DNA of 64,000 bases from Halomarina litorea. GTDB taxonomy: Archaea > Halobacteriota > Halobacteria > Halobacteriales > Haloarculaceae. The notes under the pieces are model-generated. The model had not been told where the DNA came from. It was given only the letters and a program-made list of their open reading frames with translations, and searched no databases. The position numbers and the translations under genes were made by a program. Positions 2,446-48,543 of the stretch are shown here, piece by piece; the stretch's first letter is position 1, and every line of letters begins with the position of its first letter. Where the stretch lies: assembly GCF_024227715.1 (NCBI RefSeq), contig NZ_CP100448.1, positions 1,240,001 to 1,304,000 on the forward strand, read 5' to 3'.

Positions 2446-4863
2446 ATGAACGGGTCGGGGGAAGAGACGGCACCCCACGACTCGCAGACGTCTCCCAGCG
2501 GACCCACCAACCACCTCGCACTGGTCTTCGAGACCCCTCGAGAGCAACTCGCGGGGGTCATCCCGTTCGTCAGAGCGGGGCTCAACCGGGGTGAACGCGT
2601 CATGTACGTCGCCCACGAGACGCCCCGTGACTCGCTTCTCACGTCGTTTCGGGAAGCGGGCATCGACGTCGACGCGGCACTCGAGGCGGATGACCTCAGC
2701 GTCCACTCGACCGACGAGCAGTACGACGGGGGGACGTTCGACCCCGACGCGATGATATCGTTCCTCGACGAGACGGCGCGCGCCGCCGTCCACGACGACG
2801 GGTACGATGGATTGCGCATCACCGGCGAGATGACGTGGGCGCTGGAGGCCGACGAGTCGACGCTCGCTCACCTGGTGGAGTACGAGGGCAAGCTCAACGA
2901 CTTCTACCCGGACAAGCCGGTCGTCGGGCTCTGCCAGTACGACCGCACGCGCTTCCCCGGGGAGTTGCTCCACGACATCATCCGGGCGCACCCCCACCAG
3001 GTGTACGACGCGACGGTCACGCAGAACCTCTCGTATCTTCCGCCCGACGAGTTCTTCGCGACCGAACGGGGCTCGGTCGACGCGGCAGACGTCGTCGACC
3101 TCCACCTCGACCGTCTCAGGACCCAGAGCCAGCGCGACCACCACAAGGAGACGCTCTCGACGCTCGCCGAGTCGAGTCACCAGTTCCTGTCGGGTGACGC
3201 CGACGCCGTCCTCGAGCGGGCGGTGAAGACGATCGGTACCGTGGCGTCACCCTCGCTGGTCGCCGGGTTCGTCTACGACGACGCGACGGACTCGCTCGAA
3301 GCGAACACCGTCTGGACTCCCCAGAGCGTCGACACGGACGATGTCTCGTTGCCCGACCGCTATCGAGAGGCCCTCTGGGAGGCGTACGTCGCGGGAGAGG
3401 ATATCGTCGTGTCGAACAGTCAGCCGTCCGAGCGACTGCCTGCACTGGACGTGGTGCTCCAGAGCGGTGTGGTGTCACCACTCGGTCGACACGGCGTCCT
3501 GTTCGTCGCGTCGACACGGGCCACAGCGTTCGACGAGGCGGCGGTCGAAGCCATCCAGACCGTCGCCCACTCGGCGGTGGCCGGCCTCGACCGCGTGGAG
3601 AACGAACGGGACCTCGCCGAGCAGAACGCGCAGCTTCAGCAGCTCGACCGCATCAACCGGACGATTCGCCGCATCGACCAGGCGCTCGTTCGTGCCACGA
3701 GTCGCGCAGAGATCGAAGAAGCCGTCTGCTCCCTGCTGGCCGGGGCCGACTCCTACGAGTTCGCCTGGATCGGTGGCACGGACCCACTCACCGGTCGCGT
3801 TCGACCGCGAGAGTGGGCGGGGTCGGGGGTGGCGTATCTCGACGAACTGTATCCGGAACCGGGGGACGACGACCGGAGCGAAGGGGGAGCGACGACCGGG
3901 ACGAACGACGTTCCGACGCCGACGCGCGTTGCGCTCGACCAGAACGAGCCACAGTACGTCCCGAACGCTCTCACCGTCGTCGGGTTCGACGAGTGGCGAC
4001 GGGTCGCGCTCGAGAACGGACACAAGTCCGTGCTGAGTGTCCCACTCGTCCACGAGAAGGGCCACCCGGAGGGCGTGTTGAACGTCTACCAGGCGACGCC
4101 CAACGGGATGAACCAGATGGAGCGGACCGTCTTGCAGGAACTCGGGGCGACGATCGCCTACGCCATCGACGCGACCGAGACGAAAGCGAGCCTCCGGACG
4201 AACCGCGTGACCGAGGTCAGCTATCGGTTGGCCGCCGAGAACAACCCGTTGCATCAGTTCGCGGCCCGCCTCGACAGCGAGGTCGACGTCAAGACGATCG
4301 TGCCGATGGACGGAGATTCGGTTCGGCTCTTTCTCACCGTCCCCGGGAACGACGCCGACGAGGTCCTCGCGGTCGGCGAACGCGCCAACAGCATCTCGTC
4401 GATTCGCCGAATCTCCGACCGGGAGGGGGCGTCGCTGTTCGAAGCCATCCTCGACGAGGACCACGTGATTCCACCGACCGTTCGGGCATTCAACGGGGTG
4501 GTGACGGAGGTGGCGGCGACGCCCGACGCCGTGACGGTCGTCGTCGACCTCCCGGCGAGTGCCAACGTCCGTGCGTTCGCCGACGAACTCGTCGCGGAGC
4601 AGTCGACGGCGTCCGTCGAGTCGATTCGCCGCGTCGAACAGCCACTTCAGACGCGCGAGTCGTTCTACAGCTCCGTCGAGGACCGACTGACGGAGCGCCA
4701 GTTGGAGGCGCTGCGGCTCGCGTACCACAACGGCTACTTCGAGTGGCCCCGGGAGAGCACGGCGACGGAGGTGGCGACGGCGATGGGGGTCGCACAGCCG
4801 ACGTTCACGGGCCACCTCCGGGTCGGCGAGCGGAAGGTGTTCGAACTCCTGTTCGAGGACTGA
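2446..4863 (+). CDS. MEDS-GAF sensor with bacterio-opsin-activator (bat) HTH
   Basis: The 805-residue protein is a likely one-component regulator. Residues about 20-190 form a MEDS sensory domain (LVFETPREQLAGVIPFVRAG, then a TGEMTWAL segment). Two GAF domains follow (about 225-370 and 400-570), then a bat-type region. A C-terminal HTH_10 starts at LTERQLEALRLAYHNGYFEW and ends with the DNA-binding TFTGHLRVGERKVFELLFED. Bat-family proteins activate haloarchaeal genes in response to oxygen, light or redox state. The frame opens at 2371, but the ATG at 2446 was chosen because the MEDS domain begins soon after it and a TATA-like CATAAGATAT lies near 2390. It faces glpC tail to tail. Ligand and targets are not visible. 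Confidence 0.88.
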   Translation: MNGSGEETAPHDSQTSPSGPTNHLALVFETPREQLAGVIPFVRAGLNRGERVMYVAHETPRDSLLTSFREAGIDVDAALEADDLSVHSTDEQYDGGTFDPDAMISFLDETARAAVHDDGYDGLRITGEMTWALEADESTLAHLVEYEGKLNDFYPDKPVVGLCQYDRTRFPGELLHDIIRAHPHQVYDATVTQNLSYLPPDEFFATERGSVDAADVVDLHLDRLRTQSQRDHHKETLSTLAESSHQFLSGDADAVLERAVKTIGTVASPSLVAGFVYDDATDSLEANTVWTPQSVDTDDVSLPDRYREALWEAYVAGEDIVVSNSQPSERLPALDVVLQSGVVSPLGRHGVLFVASTRATAFDEAAVEAIQTVAHSAVAGLDRVENERDLAEQNAQLQQLDRINRTIRRIDQALVRATSRAEIEEAVCSLLAGADSYEFAWIGGTDPLTGRVRPREWAGSGVAYLDELYPEPGDDDRSEGGATTGTNDVPTPTRVALDQNEPQYVPNALTVVGFDEWRRVALENGHKSVLSVPLVHEKGHPEGVLNVYQATPNGMNQMERTVLQELGATIAYAIDATETKASLRTNRVTEVSYRLAAENNPLHQFAARLDSEVDVKTIVPMDGDSVRLFLTVPGNDADEVLAVGERANSISSIRRISDREGASLFEAILDEDHVIPPTVRAFNGVVTEVAATPDAVTVVVDLPASANVRAFADELVAEQSTASVESIRRVEQPLQTRESFYSSVEDRLTERQLEALRLAYHNGYFEWPRESTATEVATAMGVAQPTFTGHLRVGERKVFELLFED

Positions 4864-42869: not shown

Positions 42870-43073
42870 TGATGATGAGGAATCCCCGGGTACCTGTCAG
42901 GTAGTCCTGATACTCTCCTCGCCGATAACATCGCGCGTGGCGAGGTGCGACCGGGAGCGCTCCGACGCCACCGGTGGAGTGGTTCGCCCCCGACGTCGCT
43001 CCGGTCGCCGCCCGGGAGGCTCTCGAGGGGCGTCTCACAGCACCTGCCGGCGGTTCGGCACTGCCGGGTAAAG

Positions 43074-43085
43074 CTCTATAAGTAG
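43074..43085 (+). promoter_or_regulatory. TATA box of the DICT-domain gene
   Basis: CTCTATAAGTAG lies about 33 bp before the ATG at 43112, so the transcript leader would be only a few bases. A GGAGG directly abuts the ATG, too close to act as a normal Shine-Dalgarno site. Confidence 0.6.
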
Positions 43086-43111
43086 CGCTGGCGTCCCTGA
43101 ACCTACGGAGG

Positions 43112-43840
43112 ATGTCGCTCACCGAACTAATCGCCGGCGTCGAGTCTCACGAGAAGACGCTGACGGTCTACAACGCCGACCCCGACGTCGCCGAGACGCT
43201 CCGCGAACACTTTCACGACCGGAACGTGTCCGTCCAGTCCGGCGAGTCGCCGGAGGGACCGTCGTCGTTCGTCGTCCTCAGCGAGGGCGACGAGTTTCTC
43301 ACGGCCACCAGCGTCGACGACGTGCTCGACCCGATTCGAGGGACGGAACCGCACTTCGAGCAGGACAACCGCTCACCCATCCTCGACCACATGGACGAGA
43401 CGATGTTCACGTCGTACGACACCCGTCAGATGGTCGCGGCCTCACGCGAAATCGAGGACCGGGCGTGGCGGGTCGGGGCCGGGGAACTCCACGCGGGCTT
43501 CCAGAAGCTCTCCATCATCGACACCCAGTTGGACGTCTACGAACAGCTCGCCTCGCGCGAGAACCTGCGGGTCCACGCCTACGGGTACCCCGACGTCGAG
43601 ATGCCACCGCACGACGGGTTCACCATCCACGCCGAACGGGCCGACGAGGTCGCCAACTCGTGGTTCGTCGTCTACGACGGCGCGGGCGTCGACTCCAGCA
43701 AGTGTGCGCTCCTCGCGGAGGAACGCACCGACCGCGAGTTCTACGGGTTCTGGACGTACGACCCCGACACGGTCGACTGGATCGTCGACCACCTGACCAC
43801 CGCGTACGGCCTCGTCGAACAGGGCGACCGCGCGACCTGA
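43112..43840 (+). CDS. DICT sensory-domain protein
   Basis: The 242-residue protein starts MSLTELIAGVESHEKTLTVY, the beginning of the DICT domain, first described in diguanylate cyclases and two-component systems. Strands SSFVVLSEGDEFLTATSVDD and a late sensor part (ENLRVHAYGYPDV, FVVYDGAGVDSSKCALLAEE) follow the family pattern. It consists of the sensor domain only, with no output domain, so it likely works through a partner. It has its own TATA box and is divergent from korAB. Confidence 0.86.
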   Translation: MSLTELIAGVESHEKTLTVYNADPDVAETLREHFHDRNVSVQSGESPEGPSSFVVLSEGDEFLTATSVDDVLDPIRGTEPHFEQDNRSPILDHMDETMFTSYDTRQMVAASREIEDRAWRVGAGELHAGFQKLSIIDTQLDVYEQLASRENLRVHAYGYPDVEMPPHDGFTIHAERADEVANSWFVVYDGAGVDSSKCALLAEERTDREFYGFWTYDPDTVDWIVDHLTTAYGLVEQGDRAT

Positions 43841-43963
43841 CCGATTGCGTGCCGCCGGCGACGTCCGCCACGCGCTCGACGTCCTTCAGCCTGAGTGACA
43901 AACTCTCGAGAACTCCTCATCGATTCACGACCGTTTAAGCGGCTGGGGCCTGTTTGTAGGACA

Positions 43964-44002
43964 ATGACAACAGTGGAGCACCACCGTGGTGGGTGGTGGT
44001 GA
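43964..44002 (+). CDS. Possible 12-codon leader ORF before the surface-protein/RND operon
   Basis: An ATG at 43964 opens a short frame encoding MTTVEHHRGGWW and ends with TGA at 44000-44002, overlapping the GTG start at 43999 of the next gene as GTGA. A TATA-like CGTTTAAG (43932-43939) lies about 27 bp before this ATG, so a leaderless transcript would begin at or just before it. Ribosomes entering here would end exactly where the big gene begins. Whether it is translated as a peptide or is chance is not decided by the sequence. Confidence 0.4.
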   Translation: MTTVEHHRGGWW

Positions 44003-46023
44003 CGGCGCGGAACCTCGTTCTGACGGTGGTCGTGGTGTGCTGCGTGCTGGTCTCCGGGGCCGCGCCCGTTCTCGCGGTCGGGGGGGCAGGCGAGTCCGTC
44101 GTCGCGCAGACGGCGGGTGGCGGCAACCAGCCCACGACGCCGACGGCGGACACCGACGCGGAGGGTCGCCCCGACTTCTCGGCGTCCGTCGCGGACGGCC
44201 GCGTGCGGGCCGGACAGACCGCCGCGCTACAGGTGACGCTCTCGAACACGGGTCGCATCACCGACGGCGCGAGCAACCCGCAGGTCGAACGCGAAGTGAC
44301 CACCGCACGCGGCGTGGAGGCGCGACTGGAGGCCGAGGACGCCCCGCTGACGGTCCAGACCGGGACCGTCTCGCTCGGGACGGTTCCCGACGGAGCGACG
44401 CCGCAGGTCCCCTTCCAGGTCCGGGTCGACGAGGACGCCGAACCGGGCACCTACGAGGTGAGCGTGGTCGTCGAGTACCGCCACACGAGCGAGTACGACG
44501 CGAGCGACGGCGACCGGGAGACGCGGACCCGGACCGAACGGATGACTGTCGAGGTCACCGTCGAGGAGAGCGCCGACTTCGAGATCGTGGACGTGGAGTC
44601 CGACGTGGCCCCCGGCGAGTCGGGCGACGTGACGTTCGTCGTCGAGAACACGGGCAGCGAGACGGTGACGGACGCCGCCGTCGCCCTCCAGTCGTCGAAC
44701 GCGGCGCTCACCTTCGGCGGCGCACCCACCGCCCGGGTGTTCGTCGGCGAGTGGGTCCCCGGCGAGCGAAAGCGCATCACCGTCGACGGGACCCTCGCGC
44801 CCGGCGCGGAGGACCGCTCGTACGCCGTCGACCTCACGGTGAACTACACGACGCCGGAGGGCCAGCAGGCGCGGTCCTCGCCGCTCACGGCGGGGGTCAC
44901 GCCGAGCGACAGCCAGCGTTTCGACGTCGAGGTGGTGAACGTCACCTCCTCGGTGAACGTCGGCGACACGGGCAACGTGACGTACACGCTCCGCAACGCG
45001 GGGTCGCAGGACCTCTCCCGGGCGGCGGTGACGGTCAACTCGCCCAACGCGGCGCTGACCTTCGGCGGGGCACAGAGCGCCCGCGTGTTCGTCGGCGACT
45101 GGGCCCCCGGCGAGACCAAACGCTTCACCGTCGAGGCGACCACCGCGCCCACCGCCGAACGGCGCGCCTACGCGGTGGACCTCACCGTCGACTACACGAC
45201 GAGCGACGGCGTGAAGGGTCAGTCCGACACGCTGACGACGGGCATCACGCCCGACGGGGAACAGGACTTCGACGTGGTGAACGCGGCCATCTCCCTGCGG
45301 GTCGGCGAGGACGGCACCATCGAGGGCACCCTCGTCAACCGCGGGCCGAACACGGCCGAGAACGCGGTGCTGGTGCTCCAGCCCTCCTCCCGGTCGCTCG
45401 ACGTGAGCGAGACGGAGTACGCCGTCGGGACACTGCGTCCGGGCGAGGGCACGGAGTTCAGCTACGACGTGTCCGTCGCCGACGGCGCGGGCGCCGCCCC
45501 CCGACAGTTCACCGTCCAGGTGCGCTACGAGGGTCGGGACGGGACGACCAAGCAGTCCGACCCGCTGTACGTCCGCGGCGAGGTCGGTCCCGCCCGTGAC
45601 GAGTTCACCGTCGAACCCGTCAACGCCACCGTCACCGCCGGCGGAACAACGCAGGTCACCCTCCGCGTGACCAACAACGGCGACGAGCGGCTCACCGGCA
45701 TCTCGGCGAAACTGTTCGGCGACGACCCCATCTCGGTGAGCGACGACGAGGCGTTCGTCACCGGCCTCGACCCCGGCGAGTCCGCCGACGTGCAGTTCAC
45801 CATCAGCGCCGCGGGTGGGGCCGCGGCGAAGACCTATCCCGTCTCGGTGGACTTCCAGTACGACGACGCCGACGGCGACACCCTGCTCTCGGACACCTAC
45901 CGCGTCCCCGTGCAGGTCGCGGAGAGCGAGGACGGGGGCCTCCTCCAGGTCGGGTGGCTCCCCGTCGGCCTCCTGACCCTGCTCATGCTCGGCGTCGGCT
46001 ACGTCGTCGTCTCCCGACGGTAG
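43999..46023 (+). CDS. Exported CARDB-like repeat protein with C-terminal membrane anchor (COG1361-like)
   Basis: The protein of about 674 residues has a signal peptide (LVLTVVVVCCVLVSGAAPVL). Several tandem beta-rich CARDB/NPCBM-like repeats follow: each has the pattern of a leading VEVTVEESADFEIVDVESDV-type strand, then GDVTFVVENTGSETVTDAAV and later ALTFGGAPTARVFVGEW, seen at least twice more near 45000 and 45300. A C-terminal helix (LPVGLLTLLMLGVGYVVV, about residues 650-670) anchors it, so it faces outside. The GTG at 43999 overlaps the leader TGA; GTG codons at 43993 and 43996 are alternatives. It abuts the RND transporter with no gap, so the two likely work together at the cell surface. 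Confidence 0.86.
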   Translation: MTARNLVLTVVVVCCVLVSGAAPVLAVGGAGESVVAQTAGGGNQPTTPTADTDAEGRPDFSASVADGRVRAGQTAALQVTLSNTGRITDGASNPQVEREVTTARGVEARLEAEDAPLTVQTGTVSLGTVPDGATPQVPFQVRVDEDAEPGTYEVSVVVEYRHTSEYDASDGDRETRTRTERMTVEVTVEESADFEIVDVESDVAPGESGDVTFVVENTGSETVTDAAVALQSSNAALTFGGAPTARVFVGEWVPGERKRITVDGTLAPGAEDRSYAVDLTVNYTTPEGQQARSSPLTAGVTPSDSQRFDVEVVNVTSSVNVGDTGNVTYTLRNAGSQDLSRAAVTVNSPNAALTFGGAQSARVFVGDWAPGETKRFTVEATTAPTAERRAYAVDLTVDYTTSDGVKGQSDTLTTGITPDGEQDFDVVNAAISLRVGEDGTIEGTLVNRGPNTAENAVLVLQPSSRSLDVSETEYAVGTLRPGEGTEFSYDVSVADGAGAAPRQFTVQVRYEGRDGTTKQSDPLYVRGEVGPARDEFTVEPVNATVTAGGTTQVTLRVTNNGDERLTGISAKLFGDDPISVSDDEAFVTGLDPGESADVQFTISAAGGAAAKTYPVSVDFQYDDADGDTLLSDTYRVPVQVAESEDGGLLQVGWLPVGLLTLLMLGVGYVVVSRR

Positions 46024-48543
46024 ATGACGAACGAAACCGTCGAACGGGTCGTCGAACGCGTCGACGATGTCGTCATCGAGCACACGCGGACCGTGGTGGT
46101 CGCGTTCCTCCTGTTGACCGTCGTCTTCGGTGCCGGCCTCGGGAACATCTCGACCGACTCCGGGACCGATCAGTTCACGAGCGACGTGCCCGCCCAGCAG
46201 GCCTTCGAGGACGTCAACCGCGAGTTCTCGCCGAGTTTCGCCCCCGGCACCGCGGGCACCTCGCTCATCCAGCGCGAACAGAACGTGCTCGCCAAACCCG
46301 CCCTGTTGCGGATGCTGGAGGCACAGCGCGCGCTCAGCGACCGCGAGGACCTCCGGGTGGTTGGGACGAGCAGCGCCGCCCAGAGCGTCGCCCGGCAACT
46401 CGACCCCGACGCGACGACGCTCGACGCGCAGATTCGGGCCGTCGAGGGGGCGACGCCCGGCGAGATAGACGCCGCCGTCCAGCAGTTGGCCGCCCGCCCC
46501 GGCTTCGACAGCACCGTCTCGACTGACTTCAACGCACAGGCGGCGACGGCCAGCGCCGCCATCGGGTCCGTCTCCCACTCGATTCCCGGCGACTCCGGCG
46601 GTGGCGGCGGTGGCGGCCCCGGCGGTGGCGGCGCGGACACGGTCACGACCATCCAGCTAGAGGCACAGCACGTCGTGAGCGCCACCGCGCCGACCATCGA
46701 GGTGTTCGGGTCGGGCATCATCAACGACGAGTTCGGCCGCGTCATCTTCGACTCGCTGGCCATCGTCGTCCCCGCCGCCTCGCTGTTCATCCTCCTCTTT
46801 CTCGTCGTGGCCTACCGCGACCCCGTGGACCTCCTGCTGGGCGTCGTCTCGCTGGTCATGGCCATCGTCTGGACGTTCGGGTTCATGGGCCTCGTCGGAA
46901 TCCCGTTCTCCCAGATGCTCATCGCCGTCCCGCCGCTGCTGCTGGCGGTGGGCATCGATTTCGGCATCCACGCCGTCAACCGCTACCGGGAGGAACTCCA
47001 GCACGAGGACATGGTCACCTCGATGCGGGTCACCCTCCGCCAACTGCTCGTCGCGTTCTTCCTCGTGACGGGCACGACGGTCATCGGCTTCGCGGCCAAC
47101 CTGACGAGTTCGCTCGGCCCCATCAAGGACTTCGGGTTCGTCGCCGCCGTCGGCATCACGTTCACGTTCCTCGTCTTCGGCGTCTTCCTCCCCGCGGCGA
47201 AACTCTACACCGACCAGCTACGGGAGGCGCGCGGCATCCCCCGCATCGGGCAGACACCCCTCGGGGAGGAGGGGTCGCTGCTCGGACGGGTCCTCACCGG
47301 CGGCGTCGCAATCGGGCGGCGCGCGCCCGTGCTCTTTCTCGTCCTCGTCCTCGTCGGGTCGGCGGGGGCGGGCGTCTACGCGACGGGCATCTCCACCAGC
47401 TTCCAGCAGGAGGACTTCCTCCCGCCCGAGGAGACGCCCGCGTACCTCGACCGCCTGCCCGAACCGCTCGCGCCCGGCGAGTACAGCGCTACGGCGGACC
47501 TCAACTTCCTCTCGGAGAACTTCGAGTCGGGCAACCAGCAGTCCGTGACGGTGTACGTCGAGGGACCGATGGAGCGCGACACCTCTCTGGAGATGATACA
47601 CCGGGCGGGCGCGGACCCGCCGGACTCGTTCGTCGTCACCGACCGGCGCGCTCAGTCCCAGAGCATCGTCACCGTCATCCAGAGCTACGCGGCACAGGAC
47701 CCCGAGTTCCGCGCGCTGGTCGACCGGAACGACCGCGACGGCGACGGCATCCCCGACGACAACCTCGGGGAGGTGTACGCCGCCCTCGAGTCCTCGCCCG
47801 CGGGCGCGCAGGCCGAACGGTACCTCGCCGAGGACCACCGGAGCGCGCAGGTGGTGTACACCGCTGAGGGCGACGTGGAGCAAGCGGAACTGACAGCCGA
47901 CGGCGAAGCCATCGCCGACCGGTTCCGCTACCCGGCGACGGCGACGGGCCAGACCATCGTCTTCCAGGCCGTCTCCGACACCATCTTCGCGTCGGCGCTC
48001 CGGAGCCTCGTCATCGCGCTGGCGCTGACGGCGGGGTTCCTCGTCGCCATCTACCGGCTCATCACGGGGTACGGCACGCTCGGCATCGTCAACCTCGTGC
48101 CCATCGTCGTCACGCTCGCACTGCTCGCGGGGTCGATGCGCTACTTCGGCATCCCGTTCAACGCGCTGACGGCGACCATCCTCTCTATCACCATCGGTCT
48201 CGGCATCGACTACTCCGTCCACGTCGTCCACCGCTTCGCCGACGAGTACGAGGAGCGCCCGCTGTTCCCGGCGCTCGAACGCACTGTACAGGGGACGGGC
48301 GGGGCGCTCACGGGGAGCATGCTCACGACGGTGACGGGCATCGGCGTCCTCGTCCTCGCCATCACGCCCATCCTCGGGCAGTTCGGCGTGCTGACGGCGC
48401 TCTCGATTCTGTACGCCTACCTCACGTCGCTGCTCGTCCTCCCGCCCGCGCTGGTGGTGTGGGCGCGCCTCTACGAGCGGTTCGCCGGCGACGACCCCGG
48501 CGAGGCGAGCGAGGCGGCGGGGACGGACGCTGCGTCCGCCTGA
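46024..48543 (+). CDS. RND/MMPL superfamily transporter (HAE3-like)
   Basis: The 839-residue protein has about 12 transmembrane helices in two MMPL-type halves, each with an extracellular loop and a cluster of helices. The first helix is TVVVAFLLLTVVFGAGLGNI. Loop and core marks include DFGIHAVNRYREELQHEDMV in the first half and IGLGIDYSVHVVHRFADEYE in the second, both with the GIDxxxH pattern important for proton coupling in RND proteins. A Gly-rich loop lies at about residues 195-205. Family members export lipids, drugs or hydrophobic compounds. Its ATG directly follows the surface-protein stop, so one operon supplies an anchored exterior protein and an exporter. Confidence 0.9.
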   Translation: MTNETVERVVERVDDVVIEHTRTVVVAFLLLTVVFGAGLGNISTDSGTDQFTSDVPAQQAFEDVNREFSPSFAPGTAGTSLIQREQNVLAKPALLRMLEAQRALSDREDLRVVGTSSAAQSVARQLDPDATTLDAQIRAVEGATPGEIDAAVQQLAARPGFDSTVSTDFNAQAATASAAIGSVSHSIPGDSGGGGGGGPGGGGADTVTTIQLEAQHVVSATAPTIEVFGSGIINDEFGRVIFDSLAIVVPAASLFILLFLVVAYRDPVDLLLGVVSLVMAIVWTFGFMGLVGIPFSQMLIAVPPLLLAVGIDFGIHAVNRYREELQHEDMVTSMRVTLRQLLVAFFLVTGTTVIGFAANLTSSLGPIKDFGFVAAVGITFTFLVFGVFLPAAKLYTDQLREARGIPRIGQTPLGEEGSLLGRVLTGGVAIGRRAPVLFLVLVLVGSAGAGVYATGISTSFQQEDFLPPEETPAYLDRLPEPLAPGEYSATADLNFLSENFESGNQQSVTVYVEGPMERDTSLEMIHRAGADPPDSFVVTDRRAQSQSIVTVIQSYAAQDPEFRALVDRNDRDGDGIPDDNLGEVYAALESSPAGAQAERYLAEDHRSAQVVYTAEGDVEQAELTADGEAIADRFRYPATATGQTIVFQAVSDTIFASALRSLVIALALTAGFLVAIYRLITGYGTLGIVNLVPIVVTLALLAGSMRYFGIPFNALTATILSITIGLGIDYSVHVVHRFADEYEERPLFPALERTVQGTGGALTGSMLTTVTGIGVLVLAITPILGQFGVLTALSILYAYLTSLLVLPPALVVWARLYERFAGDDPGEASEAAGTDAASA

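Follow-up and report, generated by a model that had tools for sequence, protein, structure and literature searches.

A putative leaderless 12-codon frame coupled to a CARDB and MMPL gene pair in Halomarina

Genes and promoter elements of the locus

The window, a stretch of 64,000 nucleotides from the genome of Halomarina litorea, contains on its forward strand a DICT-domain gene (PF10069; positions 43112 to 43840), a gene for a CARDB/NEW3 repeat protein (43999 to 46023), and a gene for an MMPL-family membrane protein (46024 to 48543). The DICT gene is the upstream neighbor and was used as a synteny marker. The product of the second gene (here, CARDB) matched the Pfam models for CARDB and NPCBM_assoc/NEW3, and a signal peptide and a C-terminal membrane segment were recognized in it by eye. 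The MMPL gene begins with an ATG directly after the TAG stop codon of CARDB. Its product scored 98.9 bits against PF03176 (gathering score, 20.5), which places it in the MMPL family, and 219.1 against the NCBIfam HAE3 model TIGR00921, below the cutoff of 351.9.

Ahead of CARDB lies a frame of 12 codons, MTTVEHHRGGWW followed by TGA (43964 to 44002, forward strand), with its ATG at 43964 to 43966 and its TGA at 44000 to 44002; equivalents of this mini-ORF were found in three further genomes of the genus (G003, G004, and G002). Both the frame and a TATA-like element 27 bp upstream of its ATG had been proposed in a preliminary description of this DNA, and both were confirmed. The box, TTTAAG (43934 to 43939, forward strand), is centered 27 bp 5' of ATG 43964, with its first base 30 nt 5' of it, and the syntenic relatives have an AT-rich box at a like distance. 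A TTT at 43953 to 43955 on the same strand (-11 to -9 relative to the ATG) is consistent with the WW element of haloarchaea (PMC4983044). A scan for bacterial-type promoters and terminators, which was not designed for archaea, found nothing, and Rfam gave no match to a riboswitch or other known RNA at 43000 to 44500.

The CARDB frame offers three consecutive in-frame GTG start candidates, at 43993, 43996, and 43999. The last (43999 to 44001), which is the likely restart codon, overlaps the mini-ORF stop to give GTGA; the other two are possible. The overlap with the GTG of the next gene that was described earlier therefore stands for GTG 43999, but that was the only one of the three possible GTGs to have been named. 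CARDB is unable to start 5' of the mini-ORF, because a TAG at 43957 to 43959 lies in its frame.

Chance expectation and conservation in relatives

The preliminary description regarded the frame as remarkable for its geometry, a view that neither of two scans of the window's own genome bore out. The first scan took in 464 kb and 356 predicted genes, drawn from the window together with 20 sampled stretches of 20 kb each; it accepted GTGA, TGATG, and adjacent junctions and required an AT-rich box. Five ATG mini-ORFs with such a box were found per 356 predicted genes, and an AT-rich box stood ahead of 5 of 31 ATG versus 278 of 3,787 other triplets. When looser criteria were applied to 306 predicted genes, the count was 6 for ATG and 3 to 7 for seven control triplets. 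The geometry alone is at chance level; what stands out is its conservation in relatives.

The DICT-CARDB-MMPL locus was present in four of the eight genomes of the genus: the window's own (G000), Halomarina halobia PSR21 (G003), G004, and the MAG Halobacteriales archaeon QS_5_70_17 (G002). At an E value of 0.001, no CARDB match was found in G001, G005, or G006, and G007 had a CARDB match with no DICT gene upstream. The CARDB/MMPL junction of the window recurs in G002, and in G003 and G004 it reads TGA CCGACG ATG. A mini-ORF is found in all four syntenic loci (MTTVEHHRGGWW in the window, MTTAFDRGRRWF in G003, MTTAVGCERRRWS in G004, and MTTFTGPSAGWWR in G002), which represent about three independent lineages, with G003 and G004 close to each other. 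The preliminary description had asked whether the peptide or the start/stop overlap is conserved in relatives, and in the four loci the ATG, the MTT, and the proximity of stop and restart are kept and the middle of the peptide is not. Each mini-ORF begins ATG-ACN-ACN (MTT), runs for 12 to 13 codons, and has its TGA near the CARDB start. Codons 4 to 9 are variable, and the DNA identity from codon 4 onward is 54 to 58% (73% between G003 and G004); with the stop near the start in four of four loci, the coupling geometry is thus more conserved than the peptide. Of 146 family genomes, 3 (G000, G003, and G004) contain a single copy of the sequence TGTAGGACAATGACNAC, always at the mini-ORF locus; G002 had none in the same search.

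The stop and restart overlap by 4, 1, and 0 nt in three loci and by 10 or 13 nt in G002. The junctions are GTGA in the window, TGATG, TGA followed directly by GTG in the same frame, and an overlap of 10 to 13 nt onto GTGs in G002. Relative to the mini-ORF, the CARDB frame is +2 in three loci and 0 in G004, where TGA alone lies between; by eye, G004 differs from G003 by three additional bases within its mini-ORF and a single one past the stop. By chance, a frame would stop this close to the start in 15% of cases in sequence of the own genome and in 6% in random sequence of matching composition, and this figure alone, over about two independent further lineages, amounts to moderate evidence. The frame relations vary, and a restart codon is always near the stop with an SD-like site (see below), as coupling predicts; the earlier claim of a leader frame coupled to the operon gains support from this.

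The varying relations also bear on the idea of one frame that comprises both the mini-ORF and CARDB and is divided by a sequencing error, a real frameshift, or a programmed frameshift. A single-base change would fuse both frames in the window, and the corresponding region is one frame in sister genera. On the other side, the frames are separate in four genomes with differing relations, and in G004 nothing but the TGA separates them within a shared frame. Because the relations differ, the four loci cannot all be accounted for by a sequencing error, a fixed frameshift signal, or read-through, and a single divided frame is extremely unlikely.

Loci with about 1.5 to 4 kb of upstream sequence were compared within and beyond the genus. 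Among these loci, the DICT gene adjoins a CARDB gene in 12 genomes, namely, the 4 mini-ORF genomes, 6 fused ones (G015, G034, and G098 to G101), and 2 of Natronomonas (L090 and L091). The Natronomonas loci have an extra, putatively TetR-like gene between DICT and CARDB. CARDB starts were surveyed at 39 of 53 loci, those with a match beginning by query residue 57; L007, L009, L019, and L041 of the 39 yielded no entry, and L015, L017, and L018 of the 14 loci outside the survey were read separately. In all six fused loci assessed, an AT-rich box is followed by an ATG in frame with the CARDB protein, whose N termini read MDSHRVV..., MDTRRSL..., or MSS.... The distance from ATG to hydrophobic core is 36 to 45 nt in the fused loci versus 53 nt in the window. 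Since the sister-genus ATG at like spacing opens CARDB itself, the mini-ORF resembles a detached N-region of a signal peptide. We infer that the ATGs of the mini-ORF and of sister-genus CARDB are homologous, and the detached state in Halomarina appears to be derived. In a DICT tree (rows cut at the first stop; G002 flagged as a long branch), the four mini-ORF genomes fall on one side of a branch (100/99), with a midpoint root that does not fix polarity.

The stop/restart junction and proposed translation of the operon

A G-rich, SD-like stretch before the restart (approximately 43987 to 43999, forward strand) was located by duplex energy with the 16S tail. This tail is GGATCACCTCC then ACAG in G000, G003, and G004; the search for CACCTCC then ACAG gave no match in G002, and the tail pattern including the final U gave no match. 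Duplex energies were computed with the anti-SD sequence AUCACCUCCU, which carries that final U, at offsets 20 to 120. The minimum fell at offset 37 to 40, by the mini-ORF stop, in all four loci (-11.8, -10.7, -10.7, and -10.4 kcal/mol). None of six fused loci reached these energies (best, -9.6), and 6.6% of random windows reached -10.2. Without the last U, the four mini-ORF loci were still the strongest (null, 6.3%); when the tail was shortened to CACCUCC, G034, a fused locus, tied with them (-8.4; null, 10.6%). Mononucleotide shuffles of the four mini-ORF loci were equally strong in 110, 83, 118, and 37 of 1,000. At the restart codons themselves, the energies were -9.3 (GTG 43999), -10.7, and -10.7. 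The SD-like site of G002 lies after its GTG starts, which gave -3.3 and -2.7; a CTG behind them would have -10.3, and the SD-like peak would fit this codon instead. Within the window's own genome, 22 overlapping pairs had a mean of -7.16 versus -3.65 for 254 genes at least 100 nt from the upstream gene, and SD enrichment at overlapping pairs has been reported for haloarchaea in general (PMC6728339). The SD-like site is nevertheless weak proof, because SD-motif removal in Haloferax lowered reinitiation in six of seven pairs, raised it in one, and never abolished it (PMC6728339).

The same site helps in weighing whether CARDB is translated directly from its GTG, on a leadered mRNA with a 5' UTR of about 30 to 36 nt, the ATG and its frame being a nonfunctional remnant of an old signal-peptide start. 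Such a start would agree with the chance-level geometry, with the loose G002 junction, and with the 28% of Haloferax protein-coding transcripts that are leadered (PMC4983044). Yet ATG and MTT are kept in four of four loci while later codons diverge, and a 5'-terminal AUG should capture ribosomes. Moreover, in Haloferax, where the nine tested overlapping pairs were coupled, SD motifs are unused for de novo initiation (PMC6728339), and yet an SD-like peak is present here as at overlapping pairs. Direct translation from the GTG is therefore considered unlikely.

The mini-ORF peptides end in Trp-containing sequences (WW, WF, WS, and WWR), with TGG within the last three codons in all four loci versus 75 of 779 null frames. 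This pattern would suit a regulatory leader peptide whose end stalls ribosomes or senses a signal and thereby controls the operon, and cysteine-rich leaderless small ORFs have been proposed as attenuators in mycobacteria (PMC4633059). However, the TGG lies in the GGTGG of the SD-like site, so its conservation needs no peptide function. An RNA structure hiding the restart was also considered, with CACCACC and GGTGGTG in the window as its potential arms, and was rejected; none of the four stretches folded better than its shuffles (z values of 0.33, 0.50, 0.68, and 1.45, for stretches with slightly different start offsets, that of G002 beginning after its ATG). Only one or two TGG codons and no fold stronger than the shuffles were found, in place of the codon run and alternative RNA structures of an attenuator, Rfam had no match across the region, and no operon link to Trp was seen. 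A regulatory leader peptide is very unlikely on these grounds. Quite improbable, too, is a regulatory gate in which conditions would affect either restart efficiency or the passage of ribosomes through the Trp-containing end, which is conserved, and so set the amounts of surface protein and exporter. If true, it would be a leaderless archaeal regulatory leader that replaces the control a 5' UTR gives leadered genes; none was found in the open-access literature searched.

In haloarchaea, the mRNAs studied so far mostly lack a leader, which makes the 5' AUG the main entry point for ribosomes. This leaderless majority, 72% of protein-coding transcripts in Haloferax (PMC4983044), and the coupling of Haloferax pairs make leaderless initiation on the mini-ORF, followed by termination and reinitiation into CARDB, the best reading, to which we assign a probability of about 70%. 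The mRNA would start at or a few nucleotides before ATG 43964, as the box spacing suggests. Ribosomes that had initiated on the leaderless AUG would translate 12 codons and stop at TGA 44000. Aided by the SD-like, G-rich stretch, they would then reinitiate at the GTG that overlaps this stop (43999 being the most likely) and produce the CARDB surface protein; translation of MMPL would follow directly after the CARDB stop codon. The transcription start, mini-ORF translation, coupling, and dependence of the operon on the mini-ORF are all predicted here from the sequence. The mini-ORF would thus serve in ribosome loading and hand-over, occupying the place of the signal-peptide N-region, and its peptide is probably irrelevant to function. 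Ribosome delivery is a proposed role of short upstream ORFs (review, PMC12548453).

The stop/start distance lies within the range of reinitiation pairs (about -8 to +6 nt) in three of four loci, with G002 (10 or 13 nt) outside it. Coupling is nearly lost at distances of about 20 nt (PMC10666635), and for E. coli, the final 15 nt of the upstream gene proved to be enough (Huber et al. 2019 and 2023; PMC6728339, PMC10666635). The overlapping pairs of Haloferax volcanii described in these papers share with the Halomarina locus a short stop/start overlap and an SD motif inside the upstream ORF. They are native gene pairs that were tested, whereas the upstream partner in Halomarina is a frame of 12 to 13 codons at the presumed 5' end of the mRNA.

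A like architecture is known from mycobacteria, whose coupled leaderless small ORFs have an RTG at the transcript start, 5 to 50 codons, and a TGA overlapping the next start as RTGA (Shell et al. 2015, PMC4633059). One of the four loci, that of the window (GTGA, 12 codons), has this combination of length and junction. The mycobacterial example shows the pattern of the Halomarina locus, in that conservation extends to the coupling but not to the peptide (PMC4633059). The mycobacterial system is bacterial and comes with transcription start and ribosome data, whereas the Halomarina one is archaeal, known from sequence alone, and set in the place of a signal-peptide N-region. Small ORFs ahead of normal archaeal genes are represented by the 16 uORFs of H. 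volcanii, of 15 to 31 amino acids in leaders of 150 to 250 nt (Babski et al. 2016, PMC4983044), and by the 5'-UTR sORFs of Methanosarcina mazei (PMC11456600); the available text of these two reports describes no leaderless frame with a stop/start overlap onto the gene. No archaeal leaderless coupled mini-ORF was found among the matches listed in the open-access literature or in the available text of PMC12482152 and PMC7531240. The archaeal leaderless version is thus without a precedent found in that literature, which does not establish its absence from print.

The locus suggests a rescue route for a gene cut off from its 5' AUG, in which a tiny 5' frame is kept and restart takes place at its stop. 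If this is true, gene starts could be misjudged in leaderless organisms, and mini-frames would escape gene callers. Halomarina and its sister genera form a natural pair for comparison.

Other small frames

A wider class of frames that end as ATGA on CARDB starts was considered in the genus designated g6 (L040, L043, L047, L048, and L012, the last read by eye) and in L036 of another genus, and it was rejected as not conserved. By eye, L012, L045, and L049 to L051 have a frame or ATG that has been lost in L011, L037, L040, and L048. ATGA arises at g6 CARDB starts because the second codon begins with A. In L043 and L047, a 31-codon frame (MTDW...) of equal length ends as ATGA on the CARDB start, and these two loci may represent another lineage in which a small ORF is coupled.

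Elsewhere in the genus, the CARDB gene of L107 (G007, reverse strand), which has no DICT gene upstream, is preceded by a possible 17-codon frame, MVLTPGSCAAEWGARAS, read by eye. The TAA of this frame lies just behind the CARDB GTG start, and no clear TATA box was seen there.

At 2417 to 2449 of the window, a small frame, MSYQIPSSWP, is accompanied by an AT-rich box and overlaps a long ORF (ATG at 2446, stop at 4863) as ATGA. This small frame may be due to chance, because a longer in-frame TTG start lies at 2371. Most of the genus matches listed for the long ORF begin near residue 221, and two (G002 and G004) reach residue 20.

Finally, CGAACGTTCGTTCG was found near the presumed TATA region in 15 of 16 g6 CARDB loci, L012, L043, and L047 among them; considered together with the putatively TetR-like gene of the two Natronomonas loci, it is likely a repressor site.
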